NCBI RefSeq assembly: GCF_030463535.1
Contig: NC_132878.1
Coordinates: 25,182,925 to 25,246,924, forward strand
Length of the DNA: 64,000 nt
Reading direction: 5' to 3'
Origin: Salminus brasiliensis
Lineage: Eukaryota > Chordata > Actinopteri > Characiformes > Bryconidae
Shown: piece by piece, positions 1 to 16,800 of the stretch
Layout of the letters: each line of letters opens with the position of its first letter
How positions within the stretch are numbered: position 1 is the first letter of the stretch
Notes under the pieces: generated by a model
What the model was told of the DNA's origin: nothing
The model's database searches: none
Seen by the model: the letters and a program-made list of their open reading frames with translations, nothing else
Position numbers and translations under genes: made by a program

Positions 1-206
1 TTGAATAATTTGTAGGTACTGAGTAATTACTATTGATTGGATAGTTAGTAGGTACTAAACAAGTAGTAGGTATTCACTTTATATAATAAAGTGGGCAACA
101 TGTAGCCCATATGTACTTTCACATTTTTATTTGAACTGTATTTTTTTTTGTATGTATCCAATAGTTAGAAAGTTTAAGTATGTGTGTGTGTGTAATTAAA
201 ACTCAC
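1..206. other. Intron of the left-edge protease
   Basis: This AT-rich stretch follows the donor (GTGAGT, minus strand) of the last visible protease exon. It has a short TG run near 181-193. No GDSGGP-coding exon is present, so the catalytic serine exon is outside the window. Confidence 0.7.
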
Positions 207-3200
207 AGTGCATGCATCTCTGCCTCCATTCAGATCACCTGCACACAACATGCTTGAAAAAATGTGACCATCATAAATATTTGGCTTGTTACACATGGTT
301 CGGTCTATAATGTCCACAGACACCTCCAGTAAGTGTCTGGATAGTTTTCCAGGATCTGTTATAAATCACAGACACATGCACAGTACAATTTTCTCTCTCT
401 ATATATATATATCTTTCAGGGTCATGGTGCAACATGAAACAAACTATACAATACAGACTGCAGAAAGTGCAATGTGCAAACATTTGTCCAATTATGCAAA
501 AATAGAAAAAAAAAAAAGCTGGTAGCGATGGCCCAGATCTAGTACCTTTTGCCAGATGGATATATATGATCCATGATAGAGAGGAGATTCACAAACCAGA
601 CAGTGATGCAGCTGCTCAGGATACTCTCTACAGTCCATTTGACAACATGGTCACCCTGTGCTCAGATGCATGGTCACCTTGTGCTCTCTTTAGTTTTGTC
701 CACATTAAGACAGATAATTGGTCCTGCACCAGTTCATAAGCCACTGCACTTCCTCTCTGTGTGCTGACTCATCATTTCTACTGATGAGATCCACCCCAAT
801 CATAAAAAATACTTTCTGTGTTTGCTAAGAAGACACACTCCGTCTGGTGTTGCACAGTGAGTAGCAACACCCCTATGCCAGTAAGCAGTAACTGGACAAG
901 ACTACTAGCACTACATTCACCCAATCTGTAAGTGTAAATGTAAATTGCACTAAAAAAGAGCATCAGCCAAATATCCTGCACTTGAAATGTAATTGTTATA
1001 TAAATTGAAATCAGTTTTTGCACAAAAGAAAGAGAGTGGGAGAGAAAGAAACTTACATTTAGTTCTTCCAAATCCTGCTACAAAGCATTTTGTCCCATGA
1101 GGAAAAATATCAGAGATTGGTAAACACACTTTCTGGACATTGTCTGTAATACAGCATAACAAAAATCATTACAATTTTCTTAAAATGTCTAAAATAAACG
1201 CCACAACAAATACTGTGGATAAACCATCTAACCTCCAGCAGTAAGACCCTTTCTCTAAGATTTAATAACAAGTTCAACAGAAACACAGTACTGCAATGAT
1301 TTAGGTTGTTATGGTCATAACTGTTTTTGTGTCTGTCAATATATTGCAGTTGGCACCTGCAGTCATGTGAAAACAATAGGACACCCCCATAATTAGTTCT
1401 CTATTAAGAAATGTTTTAATTTCGAACAGTATCTATAGATAAAGGTATCTATGCTCCTTCCACACCTTCCATGAAAAACTTGCGCCATCTCTTTCTGATG
1501 ACAGATGCATGTATTTTAACATTAACTGTGTTAAGAATTTATTGTGATGACATTTTAGGATTGTTAAAGACTTCTTTGCACATCTTGTGGTCTGCTCTTG
1601 TGCTGAACTTGTTAGGACAGCCTGATCTGGCCATGATGGCAGATGTTGTTTGAAATGTTCTCTTCTTGTAAATGATCTTGCAGGCAGTGGAATGACTGCT
1701 CCGACACCTTTTTAAATCATCTGCATCTACAACCTTCTTTTTTGAAGGCCTTGGTGAACTATTTGGATCTCACCATGGTGATACTACTCCAACTAAACTA
1801 TAGGTTTAAATAAGGCAGGTTCCGTCAAAATCCTCTCCAACCATTTTCTGATCATCTGCAGCTAATGTGGAGTACCTGATTCTATTTTAAAGACATTTTA
1901 AGTCACAATAAATACATTTTCTTACAAATGTCTAAAGATCAAATGTCCATATGTTCATTTCTGGACAATCTGCATACAAAAAAGGCCAGTCAGTCCCAAA
2001 ATCATGCTTCTCAAGTATTGACTGGTCTATATTGCAATGTTGGGTTTCTAGTTCAAAAGCTGTAGGTATAGAATAATTTCTTTATCTGAGAGTAGAATAA
2101 TAAAAACATCAAGAAAACAAAGAATAGAATGGATTTGTCAACTTAAGGGAACTAACCGGAGAACTTGACAGATTGGCTGAGCGTCAACAAGGCTATGTCA
2201 TTGTTGTCAGTCTCTGAGTTATAATCCTCATGTAAGATGATCTTCTTAATTTTATATGGTGTGGGTAGGTTATCCAGACTGACCACATCAACATATGCTT
2301 GCCAGTGACCCTGAGTTCTGAGAAACAATGATACATAATGGACATACAGCACATTTCAGTTTTACAGTTGCTTCATTTTTATTTCAATAACAGTCTGGTC
2401 ATTTGGAAAGCAAACACATTATGCAAGTCTAATGCTTTCATTATGTCATACTTACATTTTCTAGCTGGTTTGGCATGCACTAGTAAAATACAATGTATAC
2501 TTTTCTAATACTCTTTTTAGGAAGAAATAATAAATGACCAGGTGTTCCAATATTTTTGTCTATATTGTGTGTATATTTGTTTGCACTGGATGTGATTTAG
2601 TGTTAGGAAAATCTGATAGACGTGGTAAAAAAACAACCAAAAGGATTGTAATACATACTTGTAAAAGCAATGGGCTGCCGTTAATACGTGAATGTCAGTC
2701 ACAAGAGAGCCCCCACAAGATTGATTGCCATTATGCAGTCTGACAAACCAAGGCCATTTTCCAGGCTCAGACCGTTCACCATTAATTATCCTTTTCTGTC
2801 TGTCTGCAGAACAAAACAAAATGACTGTATATATAAAGATGTACATGACTCTTTAACAAGGGGTTATTTATTAGCCACAGATAGAAACATCTGGCTACAG
2901 ATTCAATAAGAACAGTGACTGTAGTGACCTCTGCAATTAGGTCTATGGGAAATGATGAGACATTTCTGTCCTGATGGAAGATGTTCTAGGATGATAGCCC
3001 CCCCCCCCCCCCCTTGATATAAAAACATATACTATAGCCTTCACAGTCACCAGATACCAACCCAGTTGAAGAGCTATGGGACAATTTTGTAACGACTTGT
3101 TAGAAAGTGCTGTGCACTGTAATCATCTTAAGAAATAAAGGCACACTGAAGCTGTTTTTTGGCGTGTGGCTGCCCTGAATCTTATTAAGATACAACGTCA

Positions 3201-5867
3201 GGTTTGTCTTTAAGTTGTCACTCATCTGTTGCTCACTAAATATTCATAGAATTACAGATTGCAGCCCAGCCCCCCAACCCCATTAGCAGGACTGCTGCCG
3301 ATCAAAAATTGAAAAAAAAGATGGGTGGGGGACTGTTCTCAGCACAGCAGTAACACTGACATGGTAATGTGTTGTGCTAGTGACTCTGTTAGGTGCATGG
3401 GTATTGCTGGGGTTTTTACACCCGTCACTGTCACTGCTATGTTGAGAGTGCCTCCTCCATCTAAAAAAAATCCAGCCATGAGCAGATCTGTGGTCAGTGG
3501 GACTGACCATAAATGAAGGGATAGAAGACAGCTGACAAAAACTGTGCATCATCAAATGAGGTACAGTCTCTAACTAAACATCAAGTGATGTAAAGCTTTA
3601 TTTGACTGGATAGTAAAGTCAGCTTTTACTTACGAAGTCTTTTTCTTCTCGGAGGCCATGTGCAATTCTCATTTGTGTTCATTTTCGGTCTTTCAGTCTT
3701 TAGCAGATCACTGTTGTAGGCTTAAAAGGGATGACGTTTCCATTACAGAATACAACAAAATTTAAAACACTTCTTCAAACTAATTTAGGATCACAGTCCT
3801 TTGTATACGTGGTCACAACAACAACACAAACAAAACATATCTATCTAAAAACTAAAAAACACAACATTTATCCAACTTTTAGTCACAGCTGTTTCACTTC
3901 AATGTAGCAGCTGTTCAATTCCAATATACTGGAGACAAAAAAAGCAAAAAACTGCAACCCTGACCAAAAACCTTTAGGCTATTACACAGTCTCATCCTTC
4001 CTGCACATAACAATTTTACACTTTTTGACTCATAATCCCTTTCTATACATTTCTGTACATATAGAGCGCTGGATACAATTAAAAGACCACTTAATTTATT
4101 ACATTTGCATCTTTACGTGTATGGAGCCATTTACCTGGTGTTACCTGGATTTGCAGACTATGAATGGCATAAAGTCACCTAACAGTAATGTGAAAGACTA
4201 GTGGAGAGCCTGTCAAGACATGAAAGCTGTGATTGGCAGTCAAAGTTATTTCACCATAGTGATTTTGAATGCTCTCAAAGTTCAGATATTAGTTCTGTGT
4301 TGTTTAAATTTGAATAATAATTTATTTGCATTACATAATTATTATAGTACGTTCTTTGCATTATTTGAGCAGTTGTTTTTAAGCAGTTGTCATTTCTGCA
4401 AATAAATGCTCTAAATAGCAATATTATTATTTGGAATTTAGGGGAAATGCTCTTCATGGTTTATGAAATACACAATATTAAACACAAATGTTAATTCCCC
4501 TAAAAAAAATTCCCTAAGCCTATAAATAGTAAACCCAGAGAAAAACAATAATGTAGGGTGGTCTCTTAATTTTTCCCCAGAGCTGTATATACCTAAATAT
4601 TAATTTCCTATCTGTATATATTTCTTTATATGTTTACATTTTATTTTTCATGCATTCATTCTATCTTGTTTTTTGTTTTTACATAATCTGACAGTCATCA
4701 AAACAGTTCACTGCTAGTTATCACTGCTAGTATCATGTGGGACTGTATATGTCTGTATACACATTTTGAGTATAGTGTAGTCTACTAGGCCATATTGTAG
4801 CCCTGGTATTTATCAGTCTTACACACTTTTACAAACAAATTACAATAATACAGTAAATTTCCTTGGCATGATATGAGATTTGGAGACTGCCAAAAAAATA
4901 TTTAGTATGCACTTAAATAATATATAATATATAATCATGTAGAATCATTTTGCATATGACAGTTCAGTGGTCTAGAGTTATATTTCCTAGAATATAGTTA
5001 TTTTTCCTATGCTGTAATTTTAAATGATCTTTTCTGGTCTAAGTAAAATTTGTCAAATTTGAAGGTGACACCTTACCTTGAAAGATGATGATGATGATGA
5101 TGATGAAGATGATGAAGATGAAGAAGAATGTTTGCAGAAAGCTGAAAGTCCATGAACTGAAATTCTTTCTATGTAATATTGTTTAAATAAAAGATATCAT
5201 TTTAAATCATTTTAGTTCAGGAGCCTGTACAATATAAACAAACAACAGAATCAAACTTACGTGTGTTGTGGTTGATTAGACTCTAGGTCTTGCCTGTCTT
5301 GTCTTCCAGGTCCTCTGTTTCTGAGGAAACGCAAAAAACTGTGTATGGTGCGCCCTCAAAGATTAGAAAAAAAAGCCACTACAGCAAAGCTATGCTGTTG
5401 CGCTTACAATCTCCAACAGCATGTATACAGATAGAGAGAGAGAGAGATCTTCATTTAGGAATGCACTCATTTCAGAGCCATTGCATTCACACTATAATCT
5501 TCACTATGTGGACAAAAGTATTGGGACACATCACAACTACAGGATCTTGCATGCCATCCCTGTCTAAATCCATAAGCGTTAATATGGTGTTGGTCCTTCC
5601 TTTGCAGACCTCTGCGACCCTGCTCTGTACATTTACATGGTCTGCTGCTTTTTGGCTGAGTTGCCATGGTTTATAAATGCTTCCTCTCACAGTTGAATGT
5701 ATGGAATATCTATGAGAAAAGAAGTTTCATAAACTGACTTGTTGCGATGGTGGCGTCACAGTACCAGTATGTGTTTGTAAAGGCACCTGTTTGTACACCT
5801 GTGACAATGGGACTGAATGAAACACCTAAACTCAACTATTAAGATGTGTGTCCGAATACTTTTGTCC

Positions 5868-5931
<64 letters not shown>

Positions 5932-6265
5932 GTGTATACACAGTGCATGGGGTGTTAGATAGGTTAAAACTCTAATGAGGGATTATAATTTCTTTCCACA
6001 AACCCAAATATGAAACAAATGTAATTGTTCTTTTTTCCCCTTCTAATGTGGGTTTTGCTTTATGCAGATCAAATTATTTACTTATATAAGAGACTAAGCA
6101 AGTCTGTGTTACTGTGTAACTCACTTTACCTGTCTGATCAGTGGCAATCAACCCCTACGCTGGTTACAACATACTTACAACTATCCCAAACATAAAATTT
6201 TTTAATCAGCATCCTAACCTGAAGTTACACTTAAGACAGCAATGTAAAACTACATACCTCCGCAT
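207..6265 (-). CDS. Short-stem type II transmembrane serine protease, tmprss13-related (3' end off window)
   Basis: Exons on the minus strand: 6258-6265 (ATGCGGAG, start), 5261-5320, 5077-5156, 3634-3720, 2659-2803, 2157-2317, 1057-1143, 207-355. All junctions are GT/AG and every phase fits (259 codons). Order: a short basic/polar cytoplasmic tail; a membrane segment [16 protein letters not shown]; a stem of about 30 residues with NENCTWPP and no LDLa or SRCR; basic RRKRLHRQKR; then the trypsin domain starting IINGE. Catalytic His is in LTAAHC and Asp in NNDIALL. The S1 Asp is in GGRDACT, predicting cleavage after Arg/Lys. The catalytic Ser exon should lie left of base 1. The stem Cys and KVCLP probably form the disulfide that tethers the activated chain. 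The closest visible relative is the neighbouring tmprss13 ([10 protein letters not shown] against [21 protein letters not shown] shared). Protease exons are near certain. The two 5'-most exons rest on phase and splice sites only. Confidence 0.82.
1380..1925 (-). mobile_element. Decayed Tc1/mariner transposase 5' fragment
   Basis: On the minus strand, broken reading frames recall the DNA-binding half of Tc1 transposases: a Lys-rich stretch with KKVVDAD, then [16 protein letters not shown], resembling the usual RSGRP..S.R segment. Multiple stops and frameshifts make it inactive. It sits in the intron between the left protease's exons at 2157 and 1143. Confidence 0.6.
3335..3565 (+). repeat. Dispersed repeat, copy 1 (cagcacagcagt family)
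   Basis: The segment starts ctcagcacagcagtaacact and includes gctggggtttttacacccgt and gtcagtgggactgaccat. A second diverged copy lies at 9368-9646 and a tail fragment near 43290-43315. This looks like a non-autonomous element common in ostariophysan genomes. The family is recognised from memory, not searched. Confidence 0.6.
5502..5873. mobile_element. MITE with terminal inverted repeats
   Basis: The left end cactatgtggacaaaagta and the right end, read in reverse complement as cacatatggacaaaagta, form inverted termini of about 27 bp. The interior has no transposase. It is inserted in intron 1 of the left protease and runs straight into a (TG)n tract. Related copies are at 16195-16626, 29818-30118, 47110-47345, 50118-50638 and 58421-58858. 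Confidence 0.7.
5871..5936. repeat. (TG)n microsatellite
   Basis: About 33 TG units with a single TTT interruption. Confidence 0.95.
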
Positions 6266-7869
6266 TTTGGGAAAGGTCAGTCAAATCAATCAATAACCAG
6301 AACAAGCTTAATCAAATGTCGGTTGTCTCACACTCCGGCTAGTAAAGAGGGAAATGTCTCATTAAGCAGGGATTGTTACACGCCACACGCTACAAGACCT
6401 GATTTACCTGTAGGACTAGAATTTGCTTAGTAGATAACAATGGCATCACTCCAAACTTCCAACAGAGACAAGATTATTAAGAATAGATATGTGCAACAAA
6501 ACACATATCCATTATATTCCTTCTATATTTCACAAAACTTACGTATCTTATATTTGTATATTGTAAAACGTGGGTTTAACATCAAGAGGAGAGGATCCTG
6601 CCATATGTGCACATGGATGTGACACCCCTGCATATTGTGTAAAAACAAATATGATGTACCATGAGTAAAGAATCTGAGGTTGAACCACTATGATGGCCTT
6701 TATTTCCGTTTCAAATCTGATCAGAATAAAAAAGTGTAATGACAATCATTACAACAATGACATAATCAATACAACTTTATTATAATTAGGCTTATTTATG
6801 CTTTCTGGTAGACAGTGATCTAATGGCCCAGTTGTTTTGCACACACTCTTAGAAAACCTTCTACAGCTCTGCACCAAACATAATGCTCAGTTCATCAAAG
6901 CGATGATTTTAGACGCTCAACAATAGATTTGTCCACTAGAAGTCACCTGTAAAGAAACGAATTCCTAAGAAGTAAATGGAGCATTAAAGCAGCTGTATGG
7001 AAGAATTGGAATTTCTTGCTCCTGGGCTCCCCCTACAGTCAAAAAGTGCAAATTGCGCATTGAGCCACCGCTATGGGAAATGCTTTTTACATTCATTTTA
7101 CAAGCTGAGAGATACAGAACTGGTATCTGTAGAGTGTCAAGATTTTACACAAATATGCAGCGTTACACCGTTTTCACAAGTGTTATCCTGCCCGTTTGTG
7201 CAAAGTTTAAATTGTGGTTTCTGGCGTGCCAAGCCCAGAGCAGCAACGATAGCAATGCTACTCTCCTTATCACAAGTCAATGGAGAATCAACATGATTTT
7301 GAAACTATTATTTTAAGGTCAATATTCTACATAATGCTGCTTTACCTCTGGTCTACACACGTTTTTCAAAAGGAAATGAAGGGGGCAAGCCATTTTTCCC
7401 CAGACCCAATCTGTGGAGGCCTTGGAGGGACCAGGATGGGTCTGATGAAGGCTACCTCATAAGGTAGCCTTCATCAGACCCATCCTGGTATGCATGCTGG
7501 TGAATAAAATCAAGAGACTTCATTTGCTTATCATCTTCGACTAAAACGTTGACAACGAACGTAGCTTACTTTGACAAATCTCAGAGACGTCCATCAAGTG
7601 CATGTGAAAAGAAAATCATTGGAAATGATTTACTACAGACAATCATAGAGCCAACAAAAAACAACAAATAAAAAAAAAAATAAATAAACAAACAAACATA
7701 TGATTTTCCACATTTAGAGTGAAAACGAGTGCAATTGAACTGCACAGATGCATGGACTTGATTTTGTGAAAGGCAGCAGGAACCAAATCAGGACAAAAAG
7801 ATGGTAAAAGTAATTAGTTGCGATGCTGGCCAGGGCCTGTGCTTCCGTCAAACGGGTTGTGAAGTACAT
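6266..7869. other. Intergenic: left protease promoter side and tmprss13 3' side
   Basis: Both genes are on the minus strand, so this 1.6 kb holds the tmprss13 3' UTR and the left protease's promoter. Minus-strand AATAAA motifs are at about 6699-6704 and 6776-6781. A perfect hairpin lies at 7430-7489 and an A-rich tract at 7660-7697. No coding exon was recognised. Confidence 0.6.
7430..7489. repeat. Perfect 28-bp inverted repeat (hairpin)
   Basis: The arms 7430-7457 and 7462-7489 are exact reverse complements, separated by the 4-base loop CATA. The arm begins accaggatgggtctgatgaa. Its position, about 400 bp beyond the tmprss13 stop on the minus strand, could place it in the 3' UTR. Confidence 0.95.
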
Positions 7870-10800
7870 TCAGAGTGTTGCGTGGTCAGGGCTCTCTTGC
7901 TGAAAGACAGATACAGAGAGACGAAAAAGCAAAGAGAAAAGAGTAAGCCGTTAAACAGTATTTAGTGATAAACTGAAATAACTACAGTTTGAGGGAGGAT
8001 CAATACTGAAGGTCCTCCACCTTCCAATCTAACATTCCATGAATTTCCATAAAGATGTGATTTTAAGCACAAAAAAGCTGGTGATTTTATATGACCATTT
8101 TCCAGCCTTTCTTATCCTTTCTTAAAGTGTGTGTATTCACCTCCATCTTGCTGTGTATCCACGTTAGCAGGCTGTGTATGTTGCTGTAAACACCCGGGTT
8201 GTTCTCTCGGCCGCAGCCCACACCCCAGCTGGTCACTCCGGTAAGATACCAGCGTCCATCATTCTCCTGGCACACCAACGGACCCCCACTGTCCCCCTGC
8301 AGAGGAAGAGAGAGTATGCTTATTCATTGGTTTCTGGCAAATTAACCTAAAGTAGACAGAAACATGGACTAAAGGGCTGCTACAGTTGTTGTTAGCTATG
8401 TGACATGCAAGCCATTGTTTCATGATAATGTGTCACGGTGTCAGAAACCACATAAACAAGTATTACTGAACAAAGCGCCATGCTAACTGGATGCTAATGA
8501 AGCTTCCCTTAACTGTTAGTGTCACTGTTGTGCTGCGAAAGGACCACCACCCAAATGACATCTGGAGAAGAGTAAAGGGTATGTCTAATTGTAGACCTTG
8601 TTGTCAGCAAATTAAGAGTTCAATCGTAGATAGATGATGCCCTGCACAAACTGTACAAGCCAGGTTGACCTGACGTACCAAATGGAGTGGTTATCAAGGG
8701 AGTTGTCTAGTCAAGGAGTGGGATGATGTTATTCTACTATAATATGTAAAAGATCATGGACACCATTGTGATCTGCAGTGTTTGATAAAGTATTGCAGGA
8801 GGTTTTTAAAAGCGTTATATACTGCTTTTTGTTTAAAAACCAGGCTTGCGGTAATATGCAGTATGTGGTAGCCCTTAGAGCTTCAAGTATGGCCCTGGGT
8901 GTCTGAATGTCAGAGTTGACTGCTGTCTTCAAACGCAGAATGAGGCCTCACCTCTTCCAAGAGTACTTAGGCAGAGTGTAGTGTATGTATCCATACTGTA
9001 TGTAGTAGTATATAAGCTTATAGAAAGCCTTTGGATCCCAGCCTATACAAACTAGCTAAGGGTATTTTCTGAGTAAACAGTCTGCAGCTGTAATGCAATT
9101 CCCCTTTTAAACCACAGGATGGCAGAAACTACCCTCTCTTATTATGGTTCCTGTTTGCAGTGCTGTCTGCGTTTTTTCCTTACATTGGAGGTACATTGGA
9201 GGTTCCATGACAACAAATAATGTGACTGTGGCCTCTTGAGTTGAAAGACGTTCATAAATCCGTATTCAGTTACAGTTAACCCTTCATACATCGCTTTATC
9301 AGCCTCCCTTTAGAATGTCTGTCAACAATAAACAGAGCAAAGAAGCACCACTGTTTATCAGATGTTATTTGTGTGGTGGTCTATTCTCAGCACAGCAGTG
9401 ATAGTGGCATGGTAGTAATCATTGGTAGTGGGTGTGGTTCAGGTACGAGTGTGTCAGGCACAGTGGTATTGCTGGGGGTTTTACACACTCCACAGTGGGT
9501 CCACTGAGTAAGAGAGGGCCTCTGTGGTCTGAAACTGACCATTAATAAAAGTCTCAACAGATGAGCAACAGTCTCTAACTGCACACCAGCAAATGGGAGC
9601 TAGGAAGAAGGGGTTTCTAATAAAGTGGCCAGTAAGTGTGTGTGTCACCTGGCAGGAGTCTCTCCCCCCGTTTAGATCTCCCGCACACAGCATGTTCTGC
9701 GTGATCTGCCCGTTATAGATCTCAGCTCTGTTACACACTGAAGAGTCGATTATATCTACTGCCACCTCCATCAGCTTACTAGAACCAAAGCCTGAAGACA
9801 CACACACACACACACAGGCATGTTACGCAAAGAGACTGCGCTGTCATTTCACATTGACTGTCTCTCTTGCTAAGATTGTGAGCAAAAAGACACACAAACC
9901 TGCTCCTTCAGTCATGGTGCCAAAGCCAGATGTCCAGCACTGTGTATCTGTGGGGACAGTCTTGTCGAACGTGGGAAGACAGACAGGCTGGACTGTACCT
10001 GCATTAGACACACAATCAGCACCAAAAGCATTCTACACACATCACTCACAACTGAAGTGGTGTTTTATTTGTTGTGTACTAAAATACTCTCCATTTAATA
10101 GCAGTGACATGTTTCATTGACACACAGTGGGATCCAAAAGGCTGCGAGCACCAGAGAGAATTTTGCATTCTTTTCCACCACAGATTAGAGTATTAGCATA
10201 GTGCTAAGTAGAATCTGTGAAAATTTAATATTTTGGAATTTCTTGGTATTTGGTGGTCTGTCCCATCACCAAATACCTTTTGCTTCACTAATAGCATGCA
10301 CTCGAGCTGCATGAAGTCCACACATTCATGTAAAAGGCTCTGAAGAGCAGATCAGACCGACCTGAGAGTCTTCTAGACAAGTAGAAGTTATGGGGCCCAG
10401 TGTAATATTTTTAATGGGGGCCAAAATATTTGGTGTGGAGTAAAAGTGAATTACACTCCCCACCTGTAGGGGGAGCCTAGGAGCTGAAATGTCAAATATT
10501 TACCTAAATTGGAAAATGTATGTAGAAACAGTGAAACAATCAGCTTGGGTTGGTCTAATCTATTCAACAGAGGTTCTTACACAAATCAGCAGAGTCCATG
10601 CAGGTCAAGTGAACACTGTCAATAATGCAAAAGTGAGACACACCACCAAATAAGACTTTTCACTTTTTACTCAAACTGCAGTGCTGATCATATCAATTGT
10701 AACAAAATAAAACATGAGATTAGAATAGAAAGCAAATCAGAAGCATTTTGAAATTGGATCCCATTGTGTTTATTTCTAGCATGCATATTAAATAATTGTG

Positions 10801-13800
10801 TGGGTGTGTGTGGGTGTGATGATACTGACTGGAAAGGCTGACAGGTTGGCTGAGTTTAAGCAGGGCGATGTCGAAGTCATTGGTTTGGGAGTTGTACTGT
10901 TCATGCAGCATGATCTGTGCCACAGAGTATGGCTGGGGCAGCATGTATTGCGACTCCACACCCAAATAAACTTGCCAGTTCTTTGGTAACTGCCAAGAGG
11001 AGGAGTCTCTGAGGAGGCCAAAAGATGACAGGGTTGACTCTATTCTATCTATACATTCAAACCATTATTTTATACACTAAGCATCAGCTAATCATAGATA
11101 GTCAGTTCATCCACTTATCCACCCATCCATTTAACAGTCCACTCATACATTGGTCTGTCTGTACATCCATAAATCATCTTTCTTCCCATCCATTCAAGCT
11201 TCCACTAATCTGTCCATCCATTCCTTCATTCATCCACTCAGACCCATGTATTATCCACCCATTAATCTATCCATTAATCTACCTGTCTTTTGGTCTGTTC
11301 ATATATTCATAAAACTATCCCTCCTTTTATTCCTCCAAGCATCTACCTATCTGTCCATCCACTCATCCACCCATCAATCTATCCATCAGTTCACCCATCT
11401 TTTGTTCTCTCCATATATGCATAAAACCATCCATCCTTTCATTCAAACAGGCATCTACCTATATATCCAACAATTTATCTTTCTATCCATTCATTTACAT
11501 TTACATTTACAGTATTCAGCTGACGCTCTTATATAGAGTGACTTACAAGTTTACTCGTATTACAGAGGTGGACCAGTGTAGTGTTAGGAGTCTTGCCCAA
11601 GGACTCTTATTGGTGTAGGGCAGCATAGGAACAAGGAATTGAACCCAAGACTCCCACATGGTGTGGTAGCTCACTGGCAGATAGTGGTGTTAACTGTTGC
11701 ACCACACCAACCACTTATGTAACAATTCATATTTCAACCTATCTATCCAATCCCTAATTGTTTCATACATTGACCCAGCCATCCATCCATCTGTTCCTCC
11801 AATGTTTTCTCCATACATTTATAAAAGTATTCATCCTTTCATTCCTCCAAGCATCTAGCTGTCCATCCAACCATCCATCTATCTACCCCTGTACATCCAA
11901 CAAACCATACATTAATTCCATACATCCATCCAACAATCTGTCTGTCCACTCATCATGGACACCTTTCTGTCCAACACTCTGGCTCATACTTGGGGAAGCA
12001 GTGTGCAGCAGTCAGTATGAAGTCCTGGCCCACCAGAGATCCTCCGCAGGTGTGGGAGCCCATGAAATGCAGGCTTGCCTGCCACGGCCACTGACCCAAA
12101 CCTGCCACATTGCCCCCTATAATCCTAGAGGAGAGTGGATGCCCACAATCTGAACAGAGAAGATGGGAGAAGGAAATAACAAAATAAAAAGATTTGTCAA
12201 CCTATGTATTTGTAAGCACTCCATACACCTTTTATTGTTTGTAAAGTAGATGAATTCCTCACTACTGCACTGAAGAGATGTTGTCGTCTGACCAGGACAT
12301 GATGAACTGCAAAAAACACAATGGTAACATTAACAGAATGCTGTGATAAGATTAATAGTTTAATCCAGTGGTCTACTAGACATTTTTGGTAGTGGTGCAT
12401 TTTGCCTTTCTAGTTTCACCTATACCTAACTTACCTTTGTACATATTTGTAAATGTCTGAAATGGCTTCAGCTGGTCTTATGTTTAAAGTTCTTACCTGA
12501 CTTTGAGTCTTCCCTGAATGTAGTCTGCAGTCTGACTGCCCACGGAGAGAAATGACTGTGAGGTTGACGGCAGGGAGGAATACTGGTAACTTCTGTAGAA
12601 ACACACAAACACATACAGCTTTAAGTCTCCAGTTATGCGTTACACTGAAGGTTTTTTTTAATTTACCCAAAGATTTTTTTAATGCCAGGCTTTAGGTCAT
12701 TCCTAAAGCCTCAGCTTGCAAATTCTGGGTCATTGTCTTGTTGCAGAACCCAGTCTCTTCAGGTTTGGCTGCCTGACTGACTGTGTCATACTGACACATA
12801 CTGACGTCCATAATGTGCTGATATTTAGTGGAATACATTCTTCCTTTCACTCATACAGTGCTGTCTGTGCATGTGACTGCTGTACAATCCTACATCACAA
12901 TAGATTCATCCCCTAGCCTAACAGTTGGCAAGGACTGCTCTTTTTCTTCAAACATATTTTGAATGATTTATAGTCAAAGACATTCTTCTTTCTACTGTAT
13001 TAGTCCCATGTTCAAGTGAATGAATTGTACACAGGGAACAAAAGGGAACAAAATCAGTGTTTCTAATCTCTGTGTATGTGTGTGAAAACCTAGTGTACGA
13101 AAACCTGTAACTCACCCTCTGAAGCCAAGCTGCTGGCAAGTTTGATCTGCCAGGCTCTTACTCCATCCCACGGAGCAGACAGGAAGAAAGTTGCCAGAGT
13201 TAGAAGTCATGACCTGAAGTTCATTCTGTGATCCAAACCTTACTGCAGAGCCGAGCAGAGCAGAGAGCAGAGGTCAATCAGTGCACTCCCTACGCTTCTA
13301 CATTCTACACCTGCCCCATTTCAATGGATCAGGAACTGGACCAGTGCCAGAGGAGAGACATGTAAGTAATTAGTACAAGATAAGAGTATCTGTATTCATG
13401 TGACAGATTACAGTAATGAGAAATTTTACTGGCTGTTGTGGAGAATTATGCACTGTAAGAATACACTGAGGAAAAATATACTATAGATTGTATAATAGAT
13501 TATAGCACTGTTTATTGGTTGTTGTGTTTTCATGGACACTGACCGCAGATCGACTCGTCACTACCCCTCTTGCAGTCAGTGTGTCCGTCACAGACAACAG
13601 CTGAGGACGGGCAACTGTCCACCCCCGAGCCCATGAACACCAGTGATGCCCCATACTTCACTAAACAAAGATCACATTAGATAGGTTAGATACAAACACA
13701 ATAAGTCAGTCTGAACAGAGTCTGAGAGTCTGAGTGTTTAAACCACAATAATCTAAATGATGATGTCTATGAGAGAGTACATAGAGATCTACATAACATA

Positions 13801-16800
13801 AACTCACATCCCAGCCAGATGGCAATTCCAATGAGAACTAACAGAAGGGCGGAGCCTCCTGAGCCTCTATAGCAACAAGCTCTTTTGTTCCGTGTCACCA
13901 CTAGCCTGGTCTGGGGCGCGTCTGCTGAAGGGAACAGAGTATACATTGAGATATGAATACAGTCACATACATAAGATCTGCTTTTTGATACCTTTAATAT
14001 ATGTACATTAATACAGCATTGATATTGTCATGTTTATGTATATTGTACATTGTAGCGCATTTTTACATTTCTATGTATCCGTAATGCAAAATACTTTGAA
14101 TGCTCTTAAAATAATAATAAAGGTGAGAGTGGAGGCTTCCAAGTGGCACTGCTGTCTAAGTGTTTATTACAGGATTGGACACATTTCAGTAAAGGCCTTT
14201 TGATGATGCTTTTAAACTGTACTGGTCTTGCATTAAACAGCAAAATATATTCAAAATATCTTTCAGGGGTGTCATACTAATGCTTCTTAGAGCATTCACG
14301 CAAAAATAATCTCAACCTAATCCCACACCTGACCCCCATTACCAATCTAAACTCTACTACACTAAGCTAAGATGGTAAACCGATGGGCTTTGCTTCACAA
14401 TTAATAGCCTTCACATCATTCTGTTAATTATCTGCAGTGAACGTTTCACACTAAAACATTCTATTGAAAGTGTGTATGTATAGTGTGTGTAGTACCTGGC
14501 TCAACTCTGTGTGTGGTAGCTATAACAGGCAGAGTCTGAGACGTAGGTATTTGGGGTAGAGGGTGGTTGATGTAGTAGGGGATGGTGGGCGGGGCACTGG
14601 TCAGCAGCTGGCTGCCCACATATGGAGGTGGAGGTTCATTTGGCTTGACCACAGAATAATATGAAGGAGGGTTTTCATCACACTAAAAGGAACAAAACAC
14701 ATTTTAAACATTTTTAAATGGCATTTCTATACCTTCTGTGTTCTTCAATACAATGAGGACAACTTGTTATCCTCCTTTATGCAAGGTGTTCATTTTTCTG
14801 CCATAGGAAGCTAAGAGAGCTCTAAACACTTATATATTTCATAGATTTTAGAAAGAAGTTATTAACATTTATTTAATAGCATGCACTTAATAAACCATTA
14901 TTTATAATAATAACATATGGTACCTATCCAAGACAGTTTTGCCAAGACAAAACTGCAAAAGCTTACAAAACCTTATTTTGGTAGTTTTTATTAGTTTGTG
15001 TGGTTTGATAATGGTAGTTGTGTTTCATGTTTCATACAGGCCAATAGAAATGCATCAAAGCGAGCTCGCTTGGCTGCGTCACAGAGAAAAATTCTACAGA
15101 TAATTTTCCATTTGGTATTTCAAGGTTGTAACCTTTTTGCTTCCAAACGAATGAACAGCACTGTATAACAGCTGTAAGAGTAGCACTGCACTACAGAGTT
15201 CAAGTATAACCGAGTCTGAATACTACAAATGTAATTATTCTAAAAATATAATTTTTATATAGCTCTCAGAATAATTAGACTCATTAGCCAAGAAACACTT
15301 AAAGGTTCCCCACTGATCAAATAGAATATACAGTAATTCTGTTACAAATATATTTATAAAGTGCTAGAATAGTACTGAGGGGAATGAAACCTACACTCCA
15401 TCTACTCCAGCCCTGACCACCTGATAACCACTCACATGGTCTTGCTCTCAGATTAATCATAGTTCCTCTATCTAACGAGTTATTCTACTGCTCTTGTTCT
15501 TCTCAATCTGAGGGAGTTTCCTGTCATGTTTACCACAGGCTTGCTCAAAAGAAGCTCGAACCCAGATCTCTGTACAGTTGCCTTGTGATAACACTGGTTG
15601 TAAAAAGCGATAAATGAATATAGTTCAATTGAAAGAACTAACGTGTTGAAAGAGGATATTGAGTGTTTGTGTGTGCGAAATGTTGTCAGTTTGAATCTGC
15701 CTTATGTCATGTTTCATTGAACCAAGACAATGTGTTCCTGTCCTGACATTAGCGTGTGTATGTCTGTGGTTAAACAAGTCCAGCCTTGATTTGGAAATAA
15801 ACAAGCATTTATCGCACTTGACACACTGTGTGTGTGTGTGTGTAAGTTAATGGTGACAATGCAGTTAGGTGTACGTATACACACCCCAACGTCAATACTG
15901 ACAAAATATGTTCTCTGTCATAATGGAAAACCTGTGTTCACCTGTGACAGCATTCAGCCATAAGATCAGATTAATGGTTCACTTGTCTAAAACAATGCAC
16001 AGAATTTTTTAGCTATGCTAATGTTCTTCAGTCCATAGTTATAGGTGACGGTTTGTCATACAGTGCCAGAAACTACATAAGCAAGGCTATTCGAGATTAC
16101 TGAACAGCTCCACATGGTTTGTGGTGAGTGTGTGATGATTAATGATGAAGTTCACGCCACAATTCTAGCCCTGATTTTTCACCAAAAGATCAAAAGATTG
16201 CCCCAGATCAGAGGCAAATCTTCAAGTTTATCCTGCTGTTGTTGAAGTACCTGTCTCCACTGTCCAGGGAAGGCCTTCTAATAGATTTTGAAGCATTGCT
16301 GGGAGGATTTGACTGCATTCAGTGACAGAAGCAGTGAAGTCAGGATGAGGTTGGATGATAACCACCCCACCTCATTTCTAAATCCTCAGCTCATCCCAAA
16401 AGTTTTAGATGAAGCACCTTAATCCACACCTAGCATTAGACATGGTGACAATAGGTTCATGTTCATCTACTCCAGAGAGTCATATTCTTTCGGCAGTACT
16501 TTTCTACAGTAACTAGACAAGCTGTGTATGTGCATTTGCACATCTGTGTCAGCAATGGGTGCACCTTAAAGTGGCTGAATGCATTCATTAGAAGGGATTT
16601 CCACAAACTTTTTGACCTATAGTGTATCTTGATCTCCAAAAAAGGGGAGGCTAAATCTAGTAGTGTAAATAGTGGTGTGAGAGAGGTAAAACCTGCAAAC
16701 ATCAACAAGCAGGGCTACAAAAACAAAAAAACAGTGCTCAGCTTTCATGTGTTTTGCACATGGTGTCGCATCACTTCCTGTGTCAGTTCTCAGGTGTGTT

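Follow-up and report, generated by a model that had tools for sequence, protein, structure and literature searches.

An old gene resembling tmprss13, in tandem with it in Salminus brasiliensis, has a rare multibasic activation site

Among the described proteases closest to the gene reported here, human TMPRSS13 activates itself (PMC8503615), as does TMPRSS2, and it has a modelled preference for arginine at P4 and lysine at P2 that is tied to the acidic residues 97, 98, and 99 of its 99-loop, E97/E98/D99 (PMC8046417). The same source describes Trp531, beside Gly532(216), as contacting P3; the residue is printed there as 225 and is taken here as 215. Activation by a convertase also has a precedent among TTSPs, in that corin is activated by PCSK6 (PMC8503615). 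In complement factor D, the replacement of Trp215 by serine accompanies a self-inhibited enzyme (PMC3949522). The titles and abstract beginnings retrieved on tmprss13 and zebrafish, fish “serine 13-like,” and teleost TTSP duplication describe no such gene as ours, and a pipefish paper lists a “serine 13-like” transcript (PMC3853555).

The candidate gene lies on the minus strand at the left end of a window of 64,000 nucleotides of the Salminus brasiliensis genome, the window being the whole stretch of DNA that was analyzed. Its last exon falls beyond the left edge. The features below are given in window positions unless stated otherwise.

C1:25182925-25246924: the window, in an assembly of 1.07 Gb and 103 contigs
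6258..6265, minus strand: E1, proposed first coding exon (start codon plus 5 nt), Kozak CCCAAAATGC, donor 8.8
5261..5320, minus strand: E2, proposed cytoplasmic tail, strong splice signals (12.1/8.3)
5077..5141, minus strand: E3, proposed signal-anchor helix, acceptor 3.5, donor 11.4
3634..3720, minus strand: E4, proposed short stem, 87 nt, phase 1-1, weak splice signals (2.5/4.8), containing a Cys (3662-3664), an NCT sequon, and RRKR (3638-3649), these inner coordinates read by eye
2659..2803, minus strand: E5, with RQKR (2790-2801), then IING, and catalytic His57 (2670-2672)
2157..2317, minus strand: E6, with the 99-loop S-E-T-D-N-N and catalytic Asp102 (2197-2199)
1057..1143, minus strand: E7, with Cys122 (VCLP) and GFG
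207..355, minus strand: E8, with Asp189 (216-218) and a phase 0 splice to the last exon
About 825 bp left of the window (sequence L009, from 9176), minus strand: last exon (GDSGGP), joining E8 in phase 0
8144..12149, minus strand: protease exons of the neighboring tmprss13, which adjoins the candidate gene and is not part of it
12263-13924, minus strand: stem and membrane exons of the neighboring tmprss13

The eight minus-strand exons E1-E8 are all bounded by GT-AG, read 254 aa in an unbroken frame, and keep every splice phase, just as an earlier sequence-only reading of this DNA had described. The 254-aa protein matches Pfam Trypsin (E=3.1e-42), and its best solved chain is already TMPRSS13 (6kd5). 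That reading had also suggested looking leftward for the GDSGGP exon; an intact trypsin exon sits there, some 0.8 kb outside the window, and the five-exon protease domain is therefore complete. A disabled catalytic-serine exon, which would be incompatible with the proposed short-stem protease, is ruled out by the same exon. His57, Asp102, Ser195 (GDSGGP), and Asp189 for Arg/Lys are all present (residue numbers assigned by eye), and the five protease exons contain no stop and no frameshift. Nine cysteines of the domain are in place, counted by eye; of the propeptide pair Cys122 is present, and its partner, the tenth cysteine, would sit in the putative exon E4. Judged from its sequence, the S1A protease domain that the candidate gene encodes is complete and trypsin-specific.

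Two residues of the last exon are unusual. Residue 215 is Val (SVG; L009 9105-9107, minus strand), and residue 192 is Thr (DACT, then GDSGGP). The aromatic residue at 215 that is typical of S1A proteases, although not strictly defining, is absent from the candidate gene. Across the paralogue loci, position 215 is Trp in 51, Phe in nine, and aliphatic in none (60 readable of 62 last-exon loci scanned, by script or by eye; L115 and L116 are unread, and L005 and L087 are one gene). The nine S1 loci with Phe instead of Trp are L097, L101, L106, L107, and L110-L114. Val215 may make for weaker catalysis in the candidate protease, or may redirect its activity.

In the activation region, RQKR directly precedes IING in E5, and RRKR in E4 ends two residues upstream of RQKR; an RQKR activation cleavage site with a second RRKR just before it was what had been claimed, and both motifs are in the sequence. 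The neighbors, likewise as described, have ordinary sites ending in SSR and LKR, namely PLSSR followed by IIGG in tmprss13 and VVGLKR in tmprss4. R-X-K/R-R at P4-P1 before residue 16 is thus present in the candidate gene (RQKR), and it precedes Ile16 in none of the 49 other readable activation sites of the S1 family examined in the genome; the multibasic site is therefore rare in the S1 family of this genome. These 49 comprise tmprss13 and tmprss4 of the window and 47 readable among 48 fetched activation exons, the 48 being drawn from the best 150 of 470 S1-family candidates in the genome. The 47 were read by script (39 + 5) or by eye (L049, L087, and L088), with L085 unread. Nearest to multibasic among the other sites are R-L-A-R at L012 and the sites of L013, L050, and tmprss4, which end in KR. 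This survey supports the view that the multibasic activation site of the candidate gene is unusual.

The gene is closest in sequence to TMPRSS13 by identity and by best solved chain. In the protease domain the C1 tmprss13 is 52% identical to the candidate, its C11 duplicate 48%, and 6kd5 45%, compared with 39-42% for five other sequences; with the last exon included, the best solved chain is TMPRSS13 6kd5 (1.8e-61) and the next TMPRSS11D (2.5e-56). The candidate carries the TMPRSS13-type motifs GFG and AGDLxGGRD, shares its protease intron phases with tmprss13, and enters E5 in the phase of the first tmprss13 protease exon (phases compared by eye). Relative to the neighboring tmprss13, identity over 224 codons is 53%, with pS 0.773 and pN 0.310; the protein has been conserved while synonymous change has reached saturation, and the duplication is therefore old. 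The protease domain has probably been under purifying selection for a long time. A tandem copy of tmprss13 had been proposed. Strand, phases, and identity bear out the tmprss13-like character and the tandem arrangement, whereas a recent tandem copy is ruled out by the saturated synonymous sites.

Trees of the protease domain, another check suggested at the outset, agree in part with this placement. In a 7-row LG+G4 tree, which omits TMPRSS11D and TMPRSS6 and uses a simpler model than the 9-row tree, the TMPRSS13 clade including the candidate receives 96/93, and the candidate with the two fish tmprss13 sequences 96/95, the inner order being open. In the 9-row C20 mixture-model tree, where most branches are open, the TMPRSS13 clade including the candidate receives 75/87. 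A TMPRSS13 clade without the candidate is not rejected there (p-AU 0.111), nor is a pairing of the candidate with TMPRSS11D (p-AU 0.32) or with TMPRSS2 (p-AU 0.092); a grouping with tmprss4 is disfavored (p-AU 0.014). Overall, the candidate gene appears to be an old tmprss13 paralogue, probably one of the fish lineage.

The position of the gene supports a tmprss13-like gene in tandem with tmprss13 on the same strand. A duplicated block at C11:33990001-34070000 (L071-L078) carries duplicates of tmprss13 on the minus strand and tmprss4 on the plus strand, matching the window in order and orientation; it is perhaps a product of the teleost genome duplication. No second copy of the candidate gene was found beside the C11 tmprss13 duplicate (tblastn, E up to 0.05, 80 kb), and the only tblastn match within the 30 kb beyond the left edge is the gene's own last exon. 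Two repeats are worth recording: a near-perfect inverted repeat at 7430-7489, where 60 bases are 97% identical to their own reverse complement, and a dispersed repeat at 4140-4576 in the E3-E4 intron, with a counterpart in L076 on C11 (79% identity). No exon is overlapped by blastn repeat matches (1-8140 against 81 sequences, 232 kb, low complexity masked).

The reported lack of LDLa and SRCR domains holds up. A three-frame Pfam scan of the minus strand over 1-8200, which may miss short split exons, matched neither, while the same scan in tmprss13 detected both (SRCR_2, E=2.6e-6; LDLa weakly, E=0.024). Likewise, neither 1-8140 nor the 30 kb beyond the left edge yielded a stem match in tblastn with the tmprss13 model. 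Hidden LDLa/SRCR exons are accordingly rejected, by tblastn in those stretches and by Pfam in 1-8200 and in L009 on the minus strand.

The amino-terminal half was assessed by enumerating the chains, at most four exons long and consistent in phase, that join E5; there are 2126, scored with a simple splice matrix. Among the four-exon chains, 78 combine a hydrophobic stretch with a Cys close to the activation site, and E1-E4 is the best of these (51.3); without that restriction, 38 four-exon chains score at least 51, and the E1 start is just one among many possible starts. The five best printed chains (59.1 to 56.2) splice E3 directly to E5 and skip E4. Among the 11 printed chains, E3 occurs in all 11 and E2 in eight. 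Of 15 control stretches matched in length, some of which may contain real exons, two hold hydrophobic-plus-Cys chains scoring at least as high as E1-E4 (51.8 and 58.1). E4 can be skipped without loss of frame because it is 87 nt long and in phase 1-1, and skipping it would remove the stem along with its Cys. Some exons of tmprss13 come close to E4 in the weakness of their splice sites (LDLa, 3.3/5.4). A GAT/ATC microsatellite at 5084-5127 takes up 44 nt of the 65-nt E3, the proposed helix exon, which as a signal anchor is largely microsatellite and does not rise above chance in the chain test. Whole-unit length changes of this repeat would add or remove residues in frame, mostly Ile. Five basic and three acidic residues lie ahead of the helix, which speaks for the proposed chain, as do the Cys and the sequon of E4. 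The E1-E8 model has 34 residues from the hydrophobic stretch to Ile16, close to the 30 or so claimed by the sequence-only reading; the short-stem membrane protein itself fares less well, E1-E4 not being above chance. That E1-E4 (start, helix, and short stem) exceed chance is unproven, membrane anchoring is about evenly balanced, and a real E4 is somewhat doubtful.

The candidate is a genuine gene, tmprss13-like and old; its multibasic site is rare and its residue 215 unusual. The explanation we tentatively prefer, with somewhat less than even confidence, is a tandem paralogue of tmprss13 with a complete protease, an RQKR cut by a furin-type convertase, and a short membrane anchor. A cut after RQKR would switch the zymogen on; the cutter would most likely be a furin-type proprotein convertase of the late secretory pathway, and the protease would then reach its destination already cleaved. 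The short signal-anchor segment might, most plausibly, hold the protein at the membrane, and the stem cysteine might tether the active chain to Cys122. Convertase activation is likely. The multibasic activation site proposed earlier is there, but cutting by a proprotein convertase in the secretory pathway is not established, since this P4-Arg/P2-Lys motif is also the one that human TMPRSS13 prefers. Residues 97-99 of the 99-loop are Glu-Thr-Asp in the candidate (by eye), and Glu97 and Asp99 make self-cleavage at RQKR as compatible as convertase cutting; given the autoactivation and preference of human TMPRSS13, self-activation is therefore a strong rival. RQKR would then be cut by the enzyme itself, by the neighboring tmprss13, or by another TMPRSS, the site having drifted to a TMPRSS13-type preference and not to furin. 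The E97/E98/D99 of the human enzyme are held to explain just this preference, and TMPRSS2, which autoactivates, has RQSR before residue 16 in the alignment. The neighboring tmprss13, however, has Gln-Thr-Asn at 97-99 (by eye) and an ordinary PLSSR site, and Val215 replaces the P3-contacting residue of human TMPRSS13. Moreover, furin would be the first protease to meet an RXKR exposed in a loop. We hold cutting by the enzyme itself or its relatives to be a serious possibility, though less likely than not; it is compatible with a different amino terminus.

Such a different amino terminus, with the protease exons real, is a reading to which we give appreciable though still minority weight: a signal peptide (and thus a secreted protein), an E4-less version, or other exons within 2.8-8.1 kb, with E1-E4 arising by chance. 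The 2126 chains, the five best of them without E4, the two matching controls, the microsatellite helix, and the weak splice signals of E4 all point this way, whereas E1-E4 tops its class, E3 and E2 recur in the printed chains, and E4 supplies a Cys for the conserved Cys122. Because of Val215 and Thr192, both unusual, one might instead suspect a decaying gene, a young pseudogene still looking intact, but the unbroken protease exons, the retained catalytic residues and cysteines, and 53% identity together with saturated synonymous sites make this highly unlikely. It is harder still to credit an alternative cassette, in which the tmprss13 stem exons splice over their own protease exons into E5, letting two interchangeable protease domains share a single stem. 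The candidate does lie on the same strand directly downstream, with phase 1 at both the SRCR3 donor of tmprss13 and the acceptor of E5 (by eye); yet phase 1 is common, the fusion would be without the propeptide Cys, and AATAAA hexamers occur at 6781 and 6704 between the two genes (two in 1.9 kb, which is weak evidence). A bolder version of the convertase explanation, a factor D-like membrane protease that is cut constitutively by a convertase, rests at low activity through loss of Trp215, wakes on its own substrate, and has an anchor length set by the microsatellite and perhaps varying between individuals, strikes us as very improbable.

If the convertase explanation is true, TMPRSS-type activation can shift from autoactivation to constitutive processing through a small change in the activation-loop exon together with loss of the stem, and the gene would offer a natural test of the role of LDLa/SRCR stems in zymogen control. 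A non-aromatic residue 215 beside a multibasic site also raises the question of whether a pre-cut enzyme is restrained by another means.

Compared with known systems, the candidate resembles TMPRSS13/MSPL (6kd5 and the fish's own tmprss13) in its protease domain, in GFG and AGDLxGGRD, and in intron phases, and its 99-loop is partly acidic where that of human TMPRSS13 is acidic. It differs from TMPRSS13/MSPL in that LDLa/SRCR were not found, in RQKR for PLSSR, and in Val215 and Thr192. TMPRSS2 shares R-Q-x-R before residue 16 (RQSR) but has LDLR-like and SRCR domains and is 40% identical. Corin, unlike the candidate, has a very large, multi-domain stem. Its zymogen, that of a TTSP, is cut by a proprotein convertase, PCSK6 (PMC8503615); for the candidate we propose a cut by a furin-type convertase. 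Finally, complement factor D likewise has a small residue in place of the canonical Trp215, Ser where the candidate has Val (PMC3949522), whereas it circulates in plasma and has an Arg218-Asp189 lock that is without a counterpart, by eye, in the candidate.
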